DNA of 41,279 bases from Acidimicrobiaceae bacterium (GTDB taxonomy: Bacteria > Actinomycetota > Acidimicrobiia > Acidimicrobiales > Aldehydirespiratoraceae): assembly GCA_026710865.1 (NCBI GenBank), contig JAPOQG010000026.1, forward strand, positions 1 to 41,279, read 5' to 3'. Below, piece by piece: positions 32,007 through 41,279 of the stretch (its first letter is position 1; every line of letters starts with the position of its first letter). The notes beneath the pieces were generated by a model that was not told the origin of the DNA, ran no database searches, and saw only the letters and a program-made list of their open reading frames with translations. Position numbers and translations under genes: made by a program.

Positions 32007-35000
32007 GTGCCTGACTCCTTCGTCCACCTCCACACCCACACCGAGTACTCGATCCTCGACGGGGCGTCCCGGCTCGACGACCTGATCGCGGCGGCCCTCG
32101 CCGACGGCCAGCCGGCGCTGGGCATCACCGACCACGGCAACATGTACGGCGTCCTCGACTTCTACCGCGGCTGCAAGAAGGCCGGGATCAAGCCGATCAT
32201 CGGCACCGAGGCCTACATGGCCCGCGACTCCCGCCACGAGCGTCCCTCTCGCCGCGGCCGGGTCGACGACTCGGGCGGCGACACCGACGGCGGCGGCAAG
32301 CTCTACTACCACCTCACGCTGCTGGCCGCAGAGGACGCCGGCTACAAGAACCTGATCAAGGTGGCCAGCCGGGCGTTCATGGAGGGCTACTACTACAAGC
32401 CCCGCTGCGACTGGGAGACCCTGGCCGACCACAGCAAGGGGCTGATCGCCACCACCGGCTGCCTCGGTGGCCACGTGCCCCAGGCACTGCTACGGGGCAA
32501 CACCGACGAGGCCCTCTCCAAGGCGGCCCGCTTCCAGGACATCTTCGGCCGCGACAGCTACTTCATCGAGTTGCAGGACCACGGCATTCCCGAGCAGCGG
32601 CAGATCCTCCCGCAGCTGCTCGAGATCGCCCGCAAGCTCGACGCCCCGCTGCTGGCCACCAACGACAGCCACTACACGCACCGCAGCGACGCAGAGGCCC
32701 ACGACGCGCTGCTGTGCGTGCAGACCGGGTCGCTGCTGGCGGACACCGACCGCCTCAAGTTCCACGGCGACGAGCACTACATGAAGACCGCGGCAGAGAT
32801 GCGCCACGTGTTCGCCGAGCTCCCCGAGGCCTGCGACAACACCCTGCTGATCGCGGAGCGCGCCGATGTGACCATCGAGTTCGGCACGCCCCGCCTGCCG
32901 CACTTCGAGGTGCCCGAGGGCTTCGAGGACGACCGGGCCTACCTGGACCACCTCACCTACCGGGGAGCGCTCCAGCGTTGGGGCGACCCGCTGCCCGAGG
33001 ATGTGGCCAAGAGGCTCGCCTACGAGCTCGAGGTCATCAACAGCATGGGGTTCGCCTCCTACTTCCTCATCACCTGGGACCTGATCGCCTACGCCCGGCG
33101 CAGGGGCATACGGGTCGGTCCGGGCCGCGGCTCGGCCGCGGGGTGCGCGGTGGCCTACAGCCTGCGCATCACCGACCTCGACCCGATCCGCTACGACCTG
33201 CTGTTCGAGCGGTTCCTCAACCCGTCGAGGGTGTCGATGCCCGACATCGACATGGACTTCGACTCGCGCCACCGCGACGAGCTGATCAACTACGCGGCCG
33301 AGCGCTACGGGCGCGAGCACGTGGCCCAGATCATCACCTTCGGACGGATCAAGGCTCGGGCCGCGGTGCGCGACGCCGCCCGCGTCCTGGGCTATCCCCA
33401 CTCGCTGGGCGACAAGATCGCGAAGGCCATGCCTCCGCTGGTGCTGGGCCGCGCCACGCCGCTGCGGTACTGCTTCGAGGAGTCGGACAGCCACCGGGAC
33501 GGCTACATGGCCGCAACCGAGCTGCGCCAGATGTACGACACCGACACCGACGTGGCCAAGGTGGTCGACGTTGCCCGGGGCCTCGAGGGCATGAGGCGCC
33601 AGGACGGCATCCACGCCGCCGCGGTGGTCATCACCCCGGAGCCGCTCACCGAGTACATGCCCATCCAGCGCAAGCCGGAGTCGGGCGGGGACCCGAGCGA
33701 GGCGCCCATCGTCACCCAGTACGAGATGCACGGCGTGGAGGACCTGGGCCTGCTCAAGATGGACTTCCTGGGGTTGCGCAACCTCGACGTGATCAGCGAC
33801 ACCGTCGAGCTGATCGAGCGCACCCGGGGCCTGACCGTCGACATCGACGCCGTCCCGCTGGACGACGAGGCCACCTACAAGATGCTGCAGGAGGGCGACA
33901 CCATCGGGGTCTTCCAGCTCGAGAACCCGCAGGTGCGCTCGCTGGTGCGCTCCCTGGCGCCCACCGCCTTCGACGACGTCTGCGCGCTGGTGGCGCTGTA
34001 CCGGCCCGGGCCGATGGCGGCCAACATGCACCACGACTACGCGGACCGCAAGAACGGCCGGCGGCCGGTGGAGTACTTCCACGACGACGCGGAGGAGATC
34101 CTGGCCGACACCTACGGGCTGATGATCTACCAGGAGAGCGTCATGCGGGTCGCCCAGCGCTTCGCGGGCTACTCGCTGGCCGAGGCCGACTCGCTGCGCA
34201 AGGCCATGGGCAAGAAGATCCGCGAGGCCATGGCCGCCGAGGAGGAGAAGTTCGTGGCGGGCGTGGTGGCCACCGGCTACGAGGAGGGCCTCGGCGCCCA
34301 GCTGTTCAAGATCATCGAGCAGTTCGCCGACTACGCCTTCAACAAGAGCCACAGCTACGGCTACGGCCTGGTCGCGTACCAGACCGCCTTCCTGAAGGCC
34401 AACTACCCGGTCGAGTACCTGGCGGCGTTGCTCACCAGCGTGAAGGGCAAGCTCGAGAACGCCTCCGTCTACCTCAATGAGTGCCGGCTGCGGGGCATCG
34501 ACGTGCAGGTCCCCGACGTCAACCGGTCGGCGTCGGACTTCACGCCGGTCCCCACCGACGACGGGACGGGCCCGGGCCGCGTCGTGTACGGGCTGTCCGC
34601 GGTGCGCAACGTGGGGGAGGGCGTGGTCGAGAAGGTGATCGCCGAACGCGACGAGGGCGGCCCCTTCACGTCGTTCGTCGACTTCGTCGAGCGGGTGCAC
34701 ATCGACGTGCTGAACAAGCGGACGGTCGAGTCGCTGATCAAGGCGGGGGCCTTCGACTCGCTCGGGCACCCCCGCAAGGGACTGCTGCAGGTGCACGACT
34801 CCATAATCGACATGACGGTGCGCAAGCGGCGTGAGCACGACGCCGGCGTGATGTCGCTGTTCGGCGAGCAGAGCGAGGGGCCGTCCTTCGACGACCGGCC
34901 GGAGGTGCCCGACGTCGAGTACGAGCGCATGCCGAAGCTGGCCCACGAGAAGGAGATGCTCGGCCTCTACATCTCCGACCACCCCATGAAGGGGATGGAG

Positions 35001-35552
35001 GCCAGGGTGCGCCGCCTCGCCGACTGCACGATCGGCGATCTGGCGGCCGGAGCGGGCGCCAGCGACGACTCGGGCTTCTGGTCGGTGGGGGGAGTGGTCA
35101 CCGGCCTGCAGCGGCGCTGGACCCGCAGGGGCGAGCTGATGGCGACGTTCGCGCTCGAGGACCTCCAGGACAAGATCGAGGTTCTGGTGTTTCCCAGGGT
35201 GATGGCCGAGCAGGGATCGAAGCTGGCCGACGACGCGGTGGTCGTGGTGCGGGGGCGGCTCGACTCGAGGGAGGAGACCCTGAGGTTCTTCGCCAACGAG
35301 GTGCAGCCGGTGACCAGCACCGAGCCCGACCCTCCGCTGCGGGTCAATCTGGGTCTCGAGCACCAGACCGACCGGCTCATCCACGAGCTCAGGTCGCTGC
35401 TGGTGGCCCATCCCGGCGGGTCGCCGGTCGAGTTGCTGCTGGGCGAGCGCCGGGTGGCGCGCCTGGCCGAGGACTTCGCGGTGGACACAGCCAACGGGTT
35501 GCCGGCCGAGCTCCGTGAGCTGCTGGGGGCCGGGGCGATCGCCGGAGTCTGA
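32007..35552 (+). CDS. dnaE: DNA polymerase III alpha subunit (DnaE1, with intact PHP domain)
   Basis: Replicative polymerase subunit, 1181 residues. The N-terminal PHP domain opens FVHLHTHTEYSILDGA and keeps all nine metal-site residues known for the proofreading PHP of mycobacterial DnaE1: His9, His11, Asp18, His43, Glu68, His102, Cys152, Asp220 and His222. The polymerase active site is PDIDMDFDSRHRDELINY (Asp413, Asp415) with GPGRGSAAGCAVAY before it; RQDGIHAAAVVI and NKSHSYGYGLVAYQTAFLKA follow. A tandem helix-hairpin-helix and an OB fold (GGVVTGLQRRWTRRGELMAT) come near the end. GTG 32007 has a CAGGAG ribosome site 6 nt upstream; a longer frame to 31791 adds non-family sequence. Confidence 0.96.
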   Translation: MPDSFVHLHTHTEYSILDGASRLDDLIAAALADGQPALGITDHGNMYGVLDFYRGCKKAGIKPIIGTEAYMARDSRHERPSRRGRVDDSGGDTDGGGKLYYHLTLLAAEDAGYKNLIKVASRAFMEGYYYKPRCDWETLADHSKGLIATTGCLGGHVPQALLRGNTDEALSKAARFQDIFGRDSYFIELQDHGIPEQRQILPQLLEIARKLDAPLLATNDSHYTHRSDAEAHDALLCVQTGSLLADTDRLKFHGDEHYMKTAAEMRHVFAELPEACDNTLLIAERADVTIEFGTPRLPHFEVPEGFEDDRAYLDHLTYRGALQRWGDPLPEDVAKRLAYELEVINSMGFASYFLITWDLIAYARRRGIRVGPGRGSAAGCAVAYSLRITDLDPIRYDLLFERFLNPSRVSMPDIDMDFDSRHRDELINYAAERYGREHVAQIITFGRIKARAAVRDAARVLGYPHSLGDKIAKAMPPLVLGRATPLRYCFEESDSHRDGYMAATELRQMYDTDTDVAKVVDVARGLEGMRRQDGIHAAAVVITPEPLTEYMPIQRKPESGGDPSEAPIVTQYEMHGVEDLGLLKMDFLGLRNLDVISDTVELIERTRGLTVDIDAVPLDDEATYKMLQEGDTIGVFQLENPQVRSLVRSLAPTAFDDVCALVALYRPGPMAANMHHDYADRKNGRRPVEYFHDDAEEILADTYGLMIYQESVMRVAQRFAGYSLAEADSLRKAMGKKIREAMAAEEEKFVAGVVATGYEEGLGAQLFKIIEQFADYAFNKSHSYGYGLVAYQTAFLKANYPVEYLAALLTSVKGKLENASVYLNECRLRGIDVQVPDVNRSASDFTPVPTDDGTGPGRVVYGLSAVRNVGEGVVEKVIAERDEGGPFTSFVDFVERVHIDVLNKRTVESLIKAGAFDSLGHPRKGLLQVHDSIIDMTVRKRREHDAGVMSLFGEQSEGPSFDDRPEVPDVEYERMPKLAHEKEMLGLYISDHPMKGMEARVRRLADCTIGDLAAGAGASDDSGFWSVGGVVTGLQRRWTRRGELMATFALEDLQDKIEVLVFPRVMAEQGSKLADDAVVVVRGRLDSREETLRFFANEVQPVTSTEPDPPLRVNLGLEHQTDRLIHELRSLLVAHPGGSPVELLLGERRVARLAEDFAVDTANGLPAELRELLGAGAIAGV

Positions 35553-37795: not shown

Positions 37796-39013
37796 ATGGC
37801 AGCCCGGATCTCTCCAGACAGCGTGTGGGTGCTCGGCGCCCACATGACCCGCTTCGCCCGCTACCCGGACCGCGACCTGATCGACCTCGCCTCGGAGAGC
37901 GCCATGGGCGCGCTGGCCGACGGCGAGGTCGCGGTGGGCGACATCGACGTGCTGGCCTGCGGGGCGCTGTTCCAGGCTTCGGGCGCGGTGGGCCAGCGCA
38001 TCCAGAAGCAGATCGGCCAGACCGGCGTGCCCGTCTACAACGTGGCCAACGCCTGCGCCACCGGGGCCACCGCCATCCGCACCGTGATCATGGCCATCAA
38101 GGCGGGCGAGGCCCGGATGGGGCTGGCTGTCGGGGCCGAGCAGATGGGCAAGATGGGACTGCTGGGCGGCGGTGCTGCCAAGAAGGAGAAGAAGGTCTTC
38201 GAACCGTCGGGCCGCTACGGCGCGGTGACCGGGGTGGACGGCCGTCTGGGCACCGAGACGATGCCGGGCGTGTTCGCCCAGGCCGGAATGGCCTACGCCC
38301 ACGATCACGACGGGGTCGGCTTCGAGCAGTTCGCCCGGGTCGCCTACAAGAACCATCTCCACTCGACGTTGAATCCGCTGGCCCAGTACCAGAAGGAGTT
38401 CTCCCTCGACGAGATCATGGAGTCTCCGATGATGAGCTACCCCAACACGCTGCTGATGTGCTGCCCGACCGGCGACGGCGCCGCCGCGGTGGTGCTGGTT
38501 TCGGGGGAGCGGCTGGCGTCGATGCCGGCCCACGTCCGCAAGCGGGCGGTGAAGGTCTCGGCGTCGGTGCTGACCTCGGACCCGTTCACCGAGGACTGCC
38601 ACGTGCAGCCTGACGTCAACACGCTCACCCGCAACGCCGCCGACCAGGCCTACGAGGCGGCCGGGGTGGGTCCCGACGACCTGGACCTGGTGGAGCTGCA
38701 CGACTGCTTCGCCACCGCCGAGCTGATCCACTACGACAATCTGGGCCTGTGCGAGCCGGGCGGCGCGGGGGAGTTCATCGACTCGGGCGGCCCGTTCCGG
38801 GACGGCGCCACGCCGGTCAACGTCTCCGGCGGGCTCATCTCCAAGGGCCACCCGATCGGCGCCACCGGCGTGGCCAACGTCTTCGAGGTCACCACCCACC
38901 TGCGAGGGGAGGCCGGCGACCGCCAGGTCGAGGGGGCTTCTGTCGGCCTGGCCCACGTCATCGGCCTGGCCTCGGCCTGCGGGGTCCACATCCTGGAGAA
39001 GGCCGCCGCCTGA
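37796..39013 (+). CDS. Thiolase-like protein (SCPx/lipid-transfer type acyl-CoA thiolase)
   Basis: A 405-residue thiolase-superfamily protein. The acylated cysteine is Cys87 in NVANACATGATAIRTV; other active-site blocks are VELHDCFATAELIHYDNLG, GGLISKGHPIGATGVANVFE (His352) and ASACGVHILE near the end. The HDCF block points to the SCP-x/non-specific lipid-transfer group, which cleaves or joins branched or sterol-derived acyl-CoAs. With the DUF35 partner it probably forms a thiolase complex or an aldolase of sterol side chain catabolism; the substrate is inferred. ATG 37796 has a GGGAGG ribosome site upstream (about 37780-37786). Confidence 0.9.
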   Translation: MAARISPDSVWVLGAHMTRFARYPDRDLIDLASESAMGALADGEVAVGDIDVLACGALFQASGAVGQRIQKQIGQTGVPVYNVANACATGATAIRTVIMAIKAGEARMGLAVGAEQMGKMGLLGGGAAKKEKKVFEPSGRYGAVTGVDGRLGTETMPGVFAQAGMAYAHDHDGVGFEQFARVAYKNHLHSTLNPLAQYQKEFSLDEIMESPMMSYPNTLLMCCPTGDGAAAVVLVSGERLASMPAHVRKRAVKVSASVLTSDPFTEDCHVQPDVNTLTRNAADQAYEAAGVGPDDLDLVELHDCFATAELIHYDNLGLCEPGGAGEFIDSGGPFRDGATPVNVSGGLISKGHPIGATGVANVFEVTTHLRGEAGDRQVEGASVGLAHVIGLASACGVHILEKAAA

Positions 39014-39183: not shown

Positions 39184-41279
39184 ATGAAGCTCTCACGGTG
39201 CTGCTCGATCGACCTCGAGGTCTCCCCGTCCACCGATGAGATTCACGCCCTCGCGGGCGTGCGCTACGACACGGAAGCGACCTACCACGCTTCGCAGGCC
39301 GGGCCGAGGCTGCGAACACACCTGCTGGCCCTCGACACCCTGGCAGAGGGCGCCGACTTCCTGATCGGGCACAATCTGATCAACTTCGACCTGCCGTATC
39401 TGCGCGCCGCCCAACCCGGCCTGCGTCTGCTCGAACTACCCGTCATCGACACGTTGTGGCTGAACCCCCTCGCGTTCCCCCGATTCCCCTACCACCGCCT
39501 GGTCAAGCACTACCGGCAAGGGGATCTCAAGCGCCACACCCGCAACGATCCCGAACTGGACGCCCGCCTCGCCCTACTGGCGTTTCAGAACCAGCAGGAG
39601 GCGCTGCTCGACGCAGAGCCCAGTCTGCTGGCCGCATGGCACTGGCTGTGCGCCGGTCCGGACGAACCGGGATTCAACCTCTTCTTCGAAGCCCTGCGCC
39701 GCTCGCCGAGACCCTCGGAGGCGGAGGGGCGCAATGCCGTCGAGGAACGGCTTGAAGACGTTGCCTGCGTCACGCACGCACGTCGAGTCATCGGGTCCGG
39801 CACTGGGCGCGGCTGGCCGCTGGCTTACGCCCTGGCATGGCTGTCGGTGTGTGGCGACAACTCGGTGATGCCGCCGTGGGTCCGTCACCAGTTCCCGGAG
39901 GCCGGGAAGCTGGTCCGGCTCCTGCGCGACACCGCCTGCACCGATCCGGCTTGTCGTTGGTGCCGGCAACGCCACGATGCCCGCGGCGAACTCAAGCGCT
40001 TCTTCAACTTCGATGGCTACCGGCGTGAGCCCGCCGACGAGCACGGACATCCGCTGCAACAGGCCATCGTCGAGGCCGCGATGGCCGGTGAGCATGGGCT
40101 TGGCATCCTGCCCACCAGCACGGGCAAGTCGATCTGCTACCAGGTGCCCGCATTGTCTCGGTACGACAAGACGGGAGCACTCACCGTGGTGATCTCACCG
40201 CTGGTTGCGCTCATGGCCGATCAGGTCGCCGGGCTCGAGGACAAGGGGATCACGTCTTGTGTGGCGATCAGCGGCATGCTCTCGATGCCCGAGCGCGCCA
40301 AGGCCCTCGAACGGATCAGGCTCGGCGACGCCGCCATCGTGCTGTGCTCCCCGGAGCAGCTGCGCAGCGTGTCGCTGCTCCGTGCGCTCGACCAGCGCGA
40401 GATCGGCGCCTGGGTGCTCGACGAGGCCCATTGCCTCTCGAAGTGGGGCCATGACTTCCGGCCCGACTACCGGTATGTGGGACGCTTCATCCGCGAGAGG
40501 GCCCAGGACGGCGCGACACCGCCCGTCCTTTGCCTCACCGCCACCGCGAAGCCGGATGTCAAGTCCGAGATCGTCGAATACTTCCGCGAGCGGCTCGGTG
40601 TCGAGTTGCGGGTGTTCGACGGCGGCAGCAAGCGGACGAACCTCGAGTTCGAGGTGGTGCCGACGACCGAGGCAACCAAGCTCCAGGCCGTCCATCTGCT
40701 CTTGGAGCAGCACCTCTCATCCGAAGAGGAGGGTGGGGCGATCGTCTACTGCGCGACGAGGCGCCGCACGGAGGTGGTGGCGGGCTTCCTGGCTGAGAAG
40801 GGCCTGAGCGCTGACCGCTTCCACGCCGGCCTCCAGCCGGAGGAGAAGAAGAACATCCAGCGGATGTTCATCGTCGGCGAGTTGCGGGTGATCGCCGCCA
40901 CCAACGCCTTCGGGATGGGAATCGACAAGCCTGACGTGCGGCTCGTGGTCCATGCCGACATTCCGTCGTCGCTGGAGAACTACCTGCAGGAGGCCGGACG
41001 CGCCGGGCGGGACCAGCAGAGCGCTCACTGCGTGCTGCTCTACACCAAGGATGACATCGACCGCCAGTTCACGATGTCGGCGCGCTCGCGACTGACCCGC
41101 CGGGAGATCCACAGCGTGCTGCGGGCACTGCGCCGTCTCCGCAGGCGCAACAAGGGTGGCGGCGAGGAGCTCGCGGCCAGCGTCGGGGAGATCCTCGCCG
41201 AGGACGAGGAACATGAGTTCCGGCAGGACTCCACCACCGACGACACGCGCGCCCGCACCGCCGTGATGTGGCTCGAGGA
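39184..41279 (+). CDS. Exonuclease-RecQ helicase fusion protein (cut by window end)
   Basis: 698 residues are visible; the frame is open at the right edge. Residues 1-130 look like a DEDD-family 3'-5' exonuclease: Asp10/Glu12 in SIDLEVS, Asp69 in IGHNLINFDLPYL, and Asp126 in NDPELDARLALLAF, with Asn121 five residues before Asp126 in place of the usual His. A CCCH cluster (Cys252, Cys257, Cys260, His264) follows. The RecQ core has ILPTSTGKSICYQVPAL (Lys315), LDEAHCLSKWGHDFRPDY (Asp413-His416), CLTATA, NAFGMGIDKPDVRLVVH and YLQEAGRAGRD (602-610). ATG 39184 puts the exonuclease motif at the N-terminus. Codons use more A/T third positions than neighbours, hinting at transfer. It may serve repair, like WRN, or defence; neither is shown. 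Confidence 0.88.
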   Translation, partial: MKLSRCCSIDLEVSPSTDEIHALAGVRYDTEATYHASQAGPRLRTHLLALDTLAEGADFLIGHNLINFDLPYLRAAQPGLRLLELPVIDTLWLNPLAFPRFPYHRLVKHYRQGDLKRHTRNDPELDARLALLAFQNQQEALLDAEPSLLAAWHWLCAGPDEPGFNLFFEALRRSPRPSEAEGRNAVEERLEDVACVTHARRVIGSGTGRGWPLAYALAWLSVCGDNSVMPPWVRHQFPEAGKLVRLLRDTACTDPACRWCRQRHDARGELKRFFNFDGYRREPADEHGHPLQQAIVEAAMAGEHGLGILPTSTGKSICYQVPALSRYDKTGALTVVISPLVALMADQVAGLEDKGITSCVAISGMLSMPERAKALERIRLGDAAIVLCSPEQLRSVSLLRALDQREIGAWVLDEAHCLSKWGHDFRPDYRYVGRFIRERAQDGATPPVLCLTATAKPDVKSEIVEYFRERLGVELRVFDGGSKRTNLEFEVVPTTEATKLQAVHLLLEQHLSSEEEGGAIVYCATRRRTEVVAGFLAEKGLSADRFHAGLQPEEKKNIQRMFIVGELRVIAATNAFGMGIDKPDVRLVVHADIPSSLENYLQEAGRAGRDQQSAHCVLLYTKDDIDRQFTMSARSRLTRREIHSVLRALRRLRRRNKGGGEELAASVGEILAEDEEHEFRQDSTTDDTRARTAVMWLE

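Follow-up and report, generated by a model that had tools for sequence, protein, structure and literature searches.

One gene at the end of the window, a term by which we mean the whole stretch of DNA analyzed (41,279 bases, the entire contig C382 of an assembly comprising 4.33 Mb in 424 contigs), was shown by comparison with its relatives to belong to a family in which a single gene encodes a predicted three-enzyme protein, combining a DEDD-type exonuclease domain with two motors, RecQ (SF2) and UvrD/PcrA-type (SF1). The predicted order along the chain is DEDD exonuclease, a module of helices and a possible zinc site, RecQ core, a helix-rich middle, UvrD helicase, and finally a C-terminal domain. 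If active as predicted, one protein would thereby perform a task that bacteria usually assemble from several, joining two unrelated motors with degradation.

A giant gene divided between two contigs

The frame from the ATG at 39184 is open to the contig end and encodes 698 residues (window positions 39184-41277). Since the frame is also open upstream of 39184, this start codon was inferred from where the alignment of relatives begins. The codon-position G+C of 0.70/0.46/0.86, in a window of 71% G+C, is as expected for a coding frame. Elsewhere in the window (32490-35411, - strand), a 973-aa open frame lies opposite a dnaE-like gene, which probably reflects the high G+C of 71% rather than a gene.

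A scan of a genome collection matched 523 stretches, 476 of which encode a relative, and the best 80 of these 476 were kept; those beyond may include ordinary helicases. The kept relatives, mostly from MAGs, are ~1,700 aa long and match almost the entire 698-aa sequence with ~63-87% identity. A close relative, L004 from an Acidimicrobiaceae MAG, is 87% identical across the 698 aa, and its protein comprises 1,700 residues counted from the matching start. Comparing the last 1,002 residues of L004 with the genome of the window revealed a match at 82% identity on contig C141 (positions 1-2682, from L004 residue 814 on). The sequence past 41279, where the initial annotation had to stop, was thus traced to C141 of the same genome, which codes for the missing C-terminus with the predicted UvrD-type SF1 helicase. 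Beyond the giant gene, C141 carries a 121-aa frame and then a longer frame, which we take, by eye, to be a glyoxalase and a DUF222 protein, respectively. The 121-aa frame also directly follows the giant gene in G011, which is the L004 genome (its copy is 100% identical), and in G006. Given the match on C141 and this shared next gene, the gene is split by an assembly gap of ~115 codons.

The window gene does stop at a contig border and is spread over two contigs, which would speak for an assembly artefact joining two genes. However, this reading is refuted by the relatives and has next to no probability: 69 of the 80 have an uninterrupted frame exceeding 1,600 aa, some of them on megabase contigs, and the C141 part is followed by the gene that G011 and G006 also have at this place. 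The other 11 relatives comprise 8 that run into a contig end and 3 that are closed but shorter (L016, L056, and L064).

Features of the giant gene and its upstream neighbor, with positions in the window
Feature	Position	Strand	Basis or remark
Upstream neighbor, thiolase by eye	37796..39013	+	Sequence beyond its stop codon differs between congeners
5' part of the giant gene, 698 of ~1,700 codons	39184..41279	+	Continues on C141:1-2691 of the same genome; gap of ~115 codons
DEDD exonuclease-like domain, residues 1-140	39184..39603	+	D10, E12, D69, and D126 invariant in 70/70; AlphaFold/Foldseek
Exo motif I, D10-L-E12	39211..39219	+	Both acids invariant in aligned heads
Exo motif II, GHN(x4)D, D69	39367..39390	+	Head alignment; hhalign
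Exo motif III, N121-D-P-E-L-D126	39544..39561	+	Asn replaces the His/Tyr of DEDDh/DEDDy enzymes
Conserved helical region, residues 141-251	39604..39936	+	Head alignment; AlphaFold model
Possible zinc site ahead of the helicase, C252-x4-C257-x2-C260-x3-H264	39937..39975	+	Three Cys in 70/70; His in ≥90%
RecQ helicase core (SF2), residues ~289-640	40048..41103	+	Pfam, TIGR00614; PDB matches of the same L004 region
Helicase motif I, PTSTGKS	40111..40131	+	PTGxGKS in the family
DEAH box, residues 413-416	40420..40431	+	Residue check
Helicase motif VI, QEAGRAGRD, residues 602-610	40987..41013	+	Residue check
Start of the helix-rich middle, truncated by the contig end	41104..41279	+	L004 comparison; AlphaFold model

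An exonuclease-like head with Asn in motif III

The initial annotation had proposed that a DEDD exonuclease-like head and a RecQ core share one frame, and on this point the 80 relatives, TIGR00614, and Foldseek agree; every residue that it had named was found in place (D10, E12, D69, D126, K315, DEAH at 413-416, and QEAGRAGRD at 602-610). The four acids, spread over three motifs, are invariant together with N121 in all 70 aligned heads, and the same pattern recurs in 7 of 7 plasmid relatives, at overall identities down to 26-30%. A simple search, by pattern alone and irrespective of placement, found N-x-P-x-x-D in 78 of the 80 loci. The position of the His/Tyr general base of DEDD exonucleases is occupied by Asn in 70/70 heads and in all 7 plasmid relatives, whereas the 3 DEDDh enzymes encoded in the same genome as the window gene, one of them within a DinG-like fusion, have H-x-A-L-x-D at motif III. 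Judging from this replacement, the nuclease activity of the head may be weak or absent. Between the window and L004, dN/dS amounts to 0.137 for the head (residues 1-140), 0.267 for residues 141-286, 0.239 for residues 287-698, and 0.249 for the part on C141, the head thus showing the lowest value of the four segments in this one pair. This purifying dN/dS indicates that the head is maintained, whatever its chemistry.

In Pfam searches, the head stayed below the cut-offs, with PF03104 as the best match (E 0.028), and only a few of the 70 members reached an E-value of 0.1 (6 with PF03104, 2 with RNase_T). Nevertheless, the RNase H-like (DnaQ-like) fold on which the earlier assignment depended is supported by AlphaFold and Foldseek. 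The AlphaFold model of residues 1-286, based on 70 sequences (pLDDT 87.4, pTM 0.85), has an order of strands and helices that fits a DnaQ-like fold. With the head model as query, Foldseek placed Staphylococcus aureus DinG on top (9ii8, E 7.9e-4, probability 1.00), followed by T7 DNA polymerase; further matches include DnaQ, a TREX1 homologue and, lower, Escherichia coli DNA polymerase II. The Foldseek probability is 0.93-1.00 in the first 29 rows, while only 2 of the 563 matches have E ≤0.001. The low query TM-scores in the same rows (0.27-0.36) are partly due to the extra helical region included in the query. DinG was likewise the best match of the head profile among PDB sequences, at a weak E of 0.038, and hhalign against the 3 DEDDh enzymes of the same genome gave an alignment spanning motifs I and II (E 1.8e-4, probability only 49%).

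Predicted helicase motors and the regions around them

Of the 7 plasmid relatives, several lack a complete version of the possible zinc site ahead of the helicase. For the RecQ core, the NCBIfam model TIGR00614 (RecQ family) scored 301 bits against a cut-off of 219.8, and TIGR01389 scored 335 bits against 640. The third position of helicase motif I is Ser in the window copy, G in 79 of the 80 relatives, and A in one, so that the Ser represents either a natural change or a sequencing error. In L004, DEAD (289-459) and Helicase_C (507-610) were both above their Pfam cut-offs, and the N- and C-terminal domains of UvrD were identified within residues 1081-1554 (PF00580 with 140.7 bits, cut-off 23; PF13361 with 34.6 bits, cut-off 25.6). 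Sequence matches of L004 in the PDB correspond to RecQ, BLM, RECQ1, and WRN at ~288-655 and to UvrD/PcrA/Rep at parts of 1081-1319.

RQC, RecQ-Zn, and HRDC domains were not found in 5 full-length relatives by Pfam up to E 1, a range in which the HMMER filters drop most matches above 0.1, and full-length relatives gave no Pfam match to a PD-(D/E)XK nuclease. The middle region (L004 residues 625-1085) yielded a helix-rich model of moderate quality (pLDDT 78, pTM 0.49) without a Foldseek match at E ≤0.001, winged-helix proteins being among the weak ones, and its profile matched only a transaldolase among PDB sequences, at E 0.1 or worse. The last 145 residues had no meaningful match in Pfam or, as a profile, among PDB sequences (best E 0.34). 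A C-terminal HIRAN domain had been suspected by eye and was rejected: Pfam, applied to 44 of the 69 C-termini, found none, and a search of 3 host genomes with PF08797 gave no match at the giant gene.

Patchy distribution and variable insertion sites

In a tree of 69 relatives and the window, 12 phylum labels require 15 label changes, compared to a minimum of 11 and a mean of 43.4 after shuffling. The relatives are patchy between phyla and clustered within them, and because of this partial clustering, recent transfer does not appear to be rampant. At E 1e-100, the gene was found in 8 of 16 genomes of its own genus (including its own) and in 5 of 21 genomes outside the genus but within the family, of which one matches at 38% identity and one has only a fragment, and in none of 24 genomes from other families of the order. 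In a sample of 396 genomes from the phylum, only two matched at E 1e-150, namely its own and another member of the family. Some of these absences may be gaps, as the genomes are mostly incomplete MAGs (84-96% complete in the genus). Two congeners hold 2 copies of the giant gene. A further RecQ-like match is present in at least 22 of 36 host genomes (E 1e-60, only some candidates scored). L005, a 5.6-kb contig labelled Chloroflexota, carries a copy of 85% identity, which the tree places together with the window and L004; the contig is either a misbinned contig or a recent transfer.

RHO or IRC codes appear in 15 of the 80 record titles, and most other relatives are presumably of sponge origin, too. 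Both codes denote sponge hosts according to a published paper. Record titles and organism names point to groundwater and sludge as further sources, and one relative lies on a Thiothrix plasmid. Full-length members occur in cultured Thiothrix, Rhizobium, Paracoccus, and Cereibacter, with distant ones in Bacteroides and Aliarcobacter.

The giant gene follows the same thiolase (by eye) in the window, G001, G006, G011, and G013. G007 represents an empty site, with ~90 bp between the thiolase and the 121-aa frame found downstream of the giant gene in other genomes, corresponding to either a gain or a loss of the giant gene. From window position 39013 onward, several different contents follow the thiolase stop among congeners (by eye), as if this were a recurrent insertion site. 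The stand-alone nature of the gene, as initially proposed, held up across the family: no neighbor is conserved, and sorting 87 loci by site gave at most 63 groups, an upper figure because loci with short flanks cannot be joined. A conserved operon partner was also rejected, as the commonest neighbor family occurs in only 8 of the 80 loci.

Among 946 matching plasmid records, 25 hold at least 80% of the protein, 16 at 41-58% and 9 at 26-32% identity, and just one record among the 80 kept has plasmid in its title, MAG contigs being unclassed in this respect. In 7 plasmid regions, a type I restriction system lies less than 1 kb away in one, a type I-D CRISPR system ~4 kb away in one, and toxin-antitoxin genes less than 10 kb away in four. 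The giant gene adjoins parA/parB, near replication genes, on an Aliarcobacter plasmid and is ~6 kb from parA on a Bacteroides plasmid. A distant match on the Nostoc sp. ATCC 53789 plasmid NZ_CP046704.1 spans 2 annotated helicase genes and an IS1634 transposase. None of the 117 matching phage records holds 80% of the protein. Relatives were also found on 4 viral contigs, 3 of which contain terminase-, portal-, or replication-like genes by eye.

Defense genes in the neighborhood

PADLOC models matched only the two helicase parts of the giant protein among the matches listed (best 25 of 40 and best 25 of 82), and no listed model matches it as a defense protein over its length. For the neighborhood, one locus per site group was sampled, giving a near set (150 of 386 genes within 4 kb) and a far set (150 of 155 genes at 6-10 kb), both drawn at random, and a control set of 147 genes (of 337) taken from 10 host genomes, in which 20 regions, each 20 kb long, had been chosen at round positions; all three sets include false genes, since genes were called as longest frames. 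At E 1e-15, 83 models matched near genes, 55 far genes, and 87 random-region genes, each with at most 2 proteins, in a rough comparison that counts models. Among the matches listed, restriction and MADS-type models were hit by near genes; Zorya, CRISPR, and AbiE-type models by far genes; and methylase, restriction, DndA, and AbiE-type models by genes of the random regions. The idea, raised in the initial annotation, that such genes might sit in defense islands thus did not find support: this rough model count gave no visible excess near the gene over far or random genes. In Pfam, the near set, viewed without a control, includes N6_Mtase (3/150) and Phage_integrase (2/150).

Proposed function and its alternatives

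As families, RecQ and UvrD helicases translocate 3'-5', and DEDD exonucleases take nucleotides from 3' ends. Together, these family polarities suggest a 3'-entry machine that degrades one strand. The giant protein would load onto 3'-ended single-stranded DNA at ends or gaps, the RecQ and UvrD motors would strip proteins and unwind the duplex, and the exonuclease head would remove the 3' strand. Its main target would be incoming or replicating foreign DNA, and abundant phage ssDNA or SSB may act as a trigger. We see an even chance that the protein is such a helicase-nuclease, loading on 3' ssDNA and used mainly against foreign DNA with the logic of Hna or Nhi; its use against foreign DNA is the least certain part of this best explanation.

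An accessory role in DNA repair, with the protein acting at stalled forks or broken ends like DinG or WRN and spreading by helping under stress, is a serious possibility, to which we give a substantial but minor share of the probability. RecQ and UvrD are established repair helicases, defense genes showed no excess nearby in the rough PADLOC test, and Foldseek ranks DinG closest to the head, an enzyme that in B. subtilis is linked to replication stress (PMC12525004). However, the gene is missing from half of its genus and from nearly all of the phylum sample, relatives reside on plasmids and on contigs with phage-like genes, and at least 22 of 36 host genomes encode a RecQ-like protein besides this one. 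While the missing island signal and the likeness to DinG thus lean to repair, patchiness, mobility, and solo occurrence lean to defense. On the basis of sequence, an anti-phage or anti-element role appears somewhat more likely than repair. The reported richness of sponge metagenomes in defense systems (PMC5099237) fits a defense role but proves nothing.

It is rather improbable that the gene primarily helps its carrier plasmid or prophage in replication, recombination, or establishment. The partition genes on the Aliarcobacter and Bacteroides plasmids and the relatives on some viral contigs would be in line with such a helper, but only the single kept record is titled plasmid, the neighbors vary, and the phage records lack a match holding 80% of the protein. 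Compatible with any of these roles, and unlikely though worth considering, is a head that serves as a catalytically dead clamp for DNA ends, leaving a two-motor helicase without nuclease. The uniform Asn at the His/Tyr position points in this direction, whereas the invariance of the four acids and the lowest dN/dS of all segments argue against it. As full-length members are available in cultured hosts, the proposed defense against foreign DNA is directly testable.

Comparison with known systems

The giant protein belongs, as a variant, among the known helicase-nuclease fusions. Plasmid copies, where annotated, are mostly designated RecQ family ATP-dependent DNA helicase, and the sequences themselves are therefore not new. 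A search of the open-access literature, with subscription journals mostly outside its scope and hence no proof of absence, returned nothing on an exonuclease-RecQ-UvrD fusion. The genome of the window also encodes a second giant fusion, L107 (C139, ~7.6-13.4 kb, - strand), a single frame of 1,728 aa comprising a DEDDh exonuclease (RNase_T), a helicase resembling DinG/XPD by eye, a RecQ core, and a Cys cluster. G061 and G064 have RecQ-matching frames (1,685 and 1,735 aa) that may be of the same kind as L107.

The initial annotation had described the architecture as WRN-like. Human WRN does combine an exonuclease and a RecQ core in this order in one chain; however, the giant protein differs by its C-terminal UvrD helicase, by the lack of detected RQC, RecQ-Zn, and HRDC domains, and by the Asn in motif III, where the WRN exonuclease has Tyr (DEDDy), and WRN-like was therefore rejected as a label for the family. 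Moreover, the WRN exonuclease is absent from the fold matches of the head among the best 50 of 563 listed. Bacterial DinG with an exonuclease (Bacillus subtilis and S. aureus) likewise has an N-terminal DEDD domain and an SF2 helicase, but this helicase is XPD-like instead of RecQ and there is no UvrD part. B. subtilis DinG, which combines a DEDD exonuclease with a helicase, has been tied to replication stress (PMC12525004).

The RecQ core aligns with the defense helicases PsyrT (RqlH) and DpdF (PADLOC E 2e-87; best 6e-113), but the best models match only residues ~288-650, without the exonuclease or UvrD part. A UvrD-type helicase is shared with Gabija GajB (PADLOC E 1.7e-52). GajB works with a separate nuclease, GajA, whereas no conserved partner gene accompanies the giant gene. 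Hna (PMC13381803) is encoded by one gene, combines an SF2 helicase with a 3'-5' ssDNA exonuclease, acts in phage defense, and is stimulated by a phage SSB; it comprises 845 aa with a DinG-like helicase and a C-terminal PD-(D/E)XK nuclease. The giant protein shares with Hna the single gene and the pairing of an SF2 helicase with a nuclease domain, but is ~1,700 aa long, has DEDD, RecQ, and UvrD parts, and gave no PD-(D/E)XK match. By analogy, Hna, DinG, and AddAB would be its nearest counterparts in logic. RecBCD and AddAB are helicase-nucleases that combine motors with a PD-(D/E)XK nuclease, whereas here a single chain includes RecQ among its motors and a DEDD nuclease domain. We put forward, tentatively and as the lesser prospect, that the giant protein is a single-chain counterpart of AddAB/RecBCD directed against phages and plasmids, in which an Asn-type DEDD exonuclease would be fed by RecQ and UvrD motors, with different phyla sharing it in dense communities, for example among sponge symbionts.
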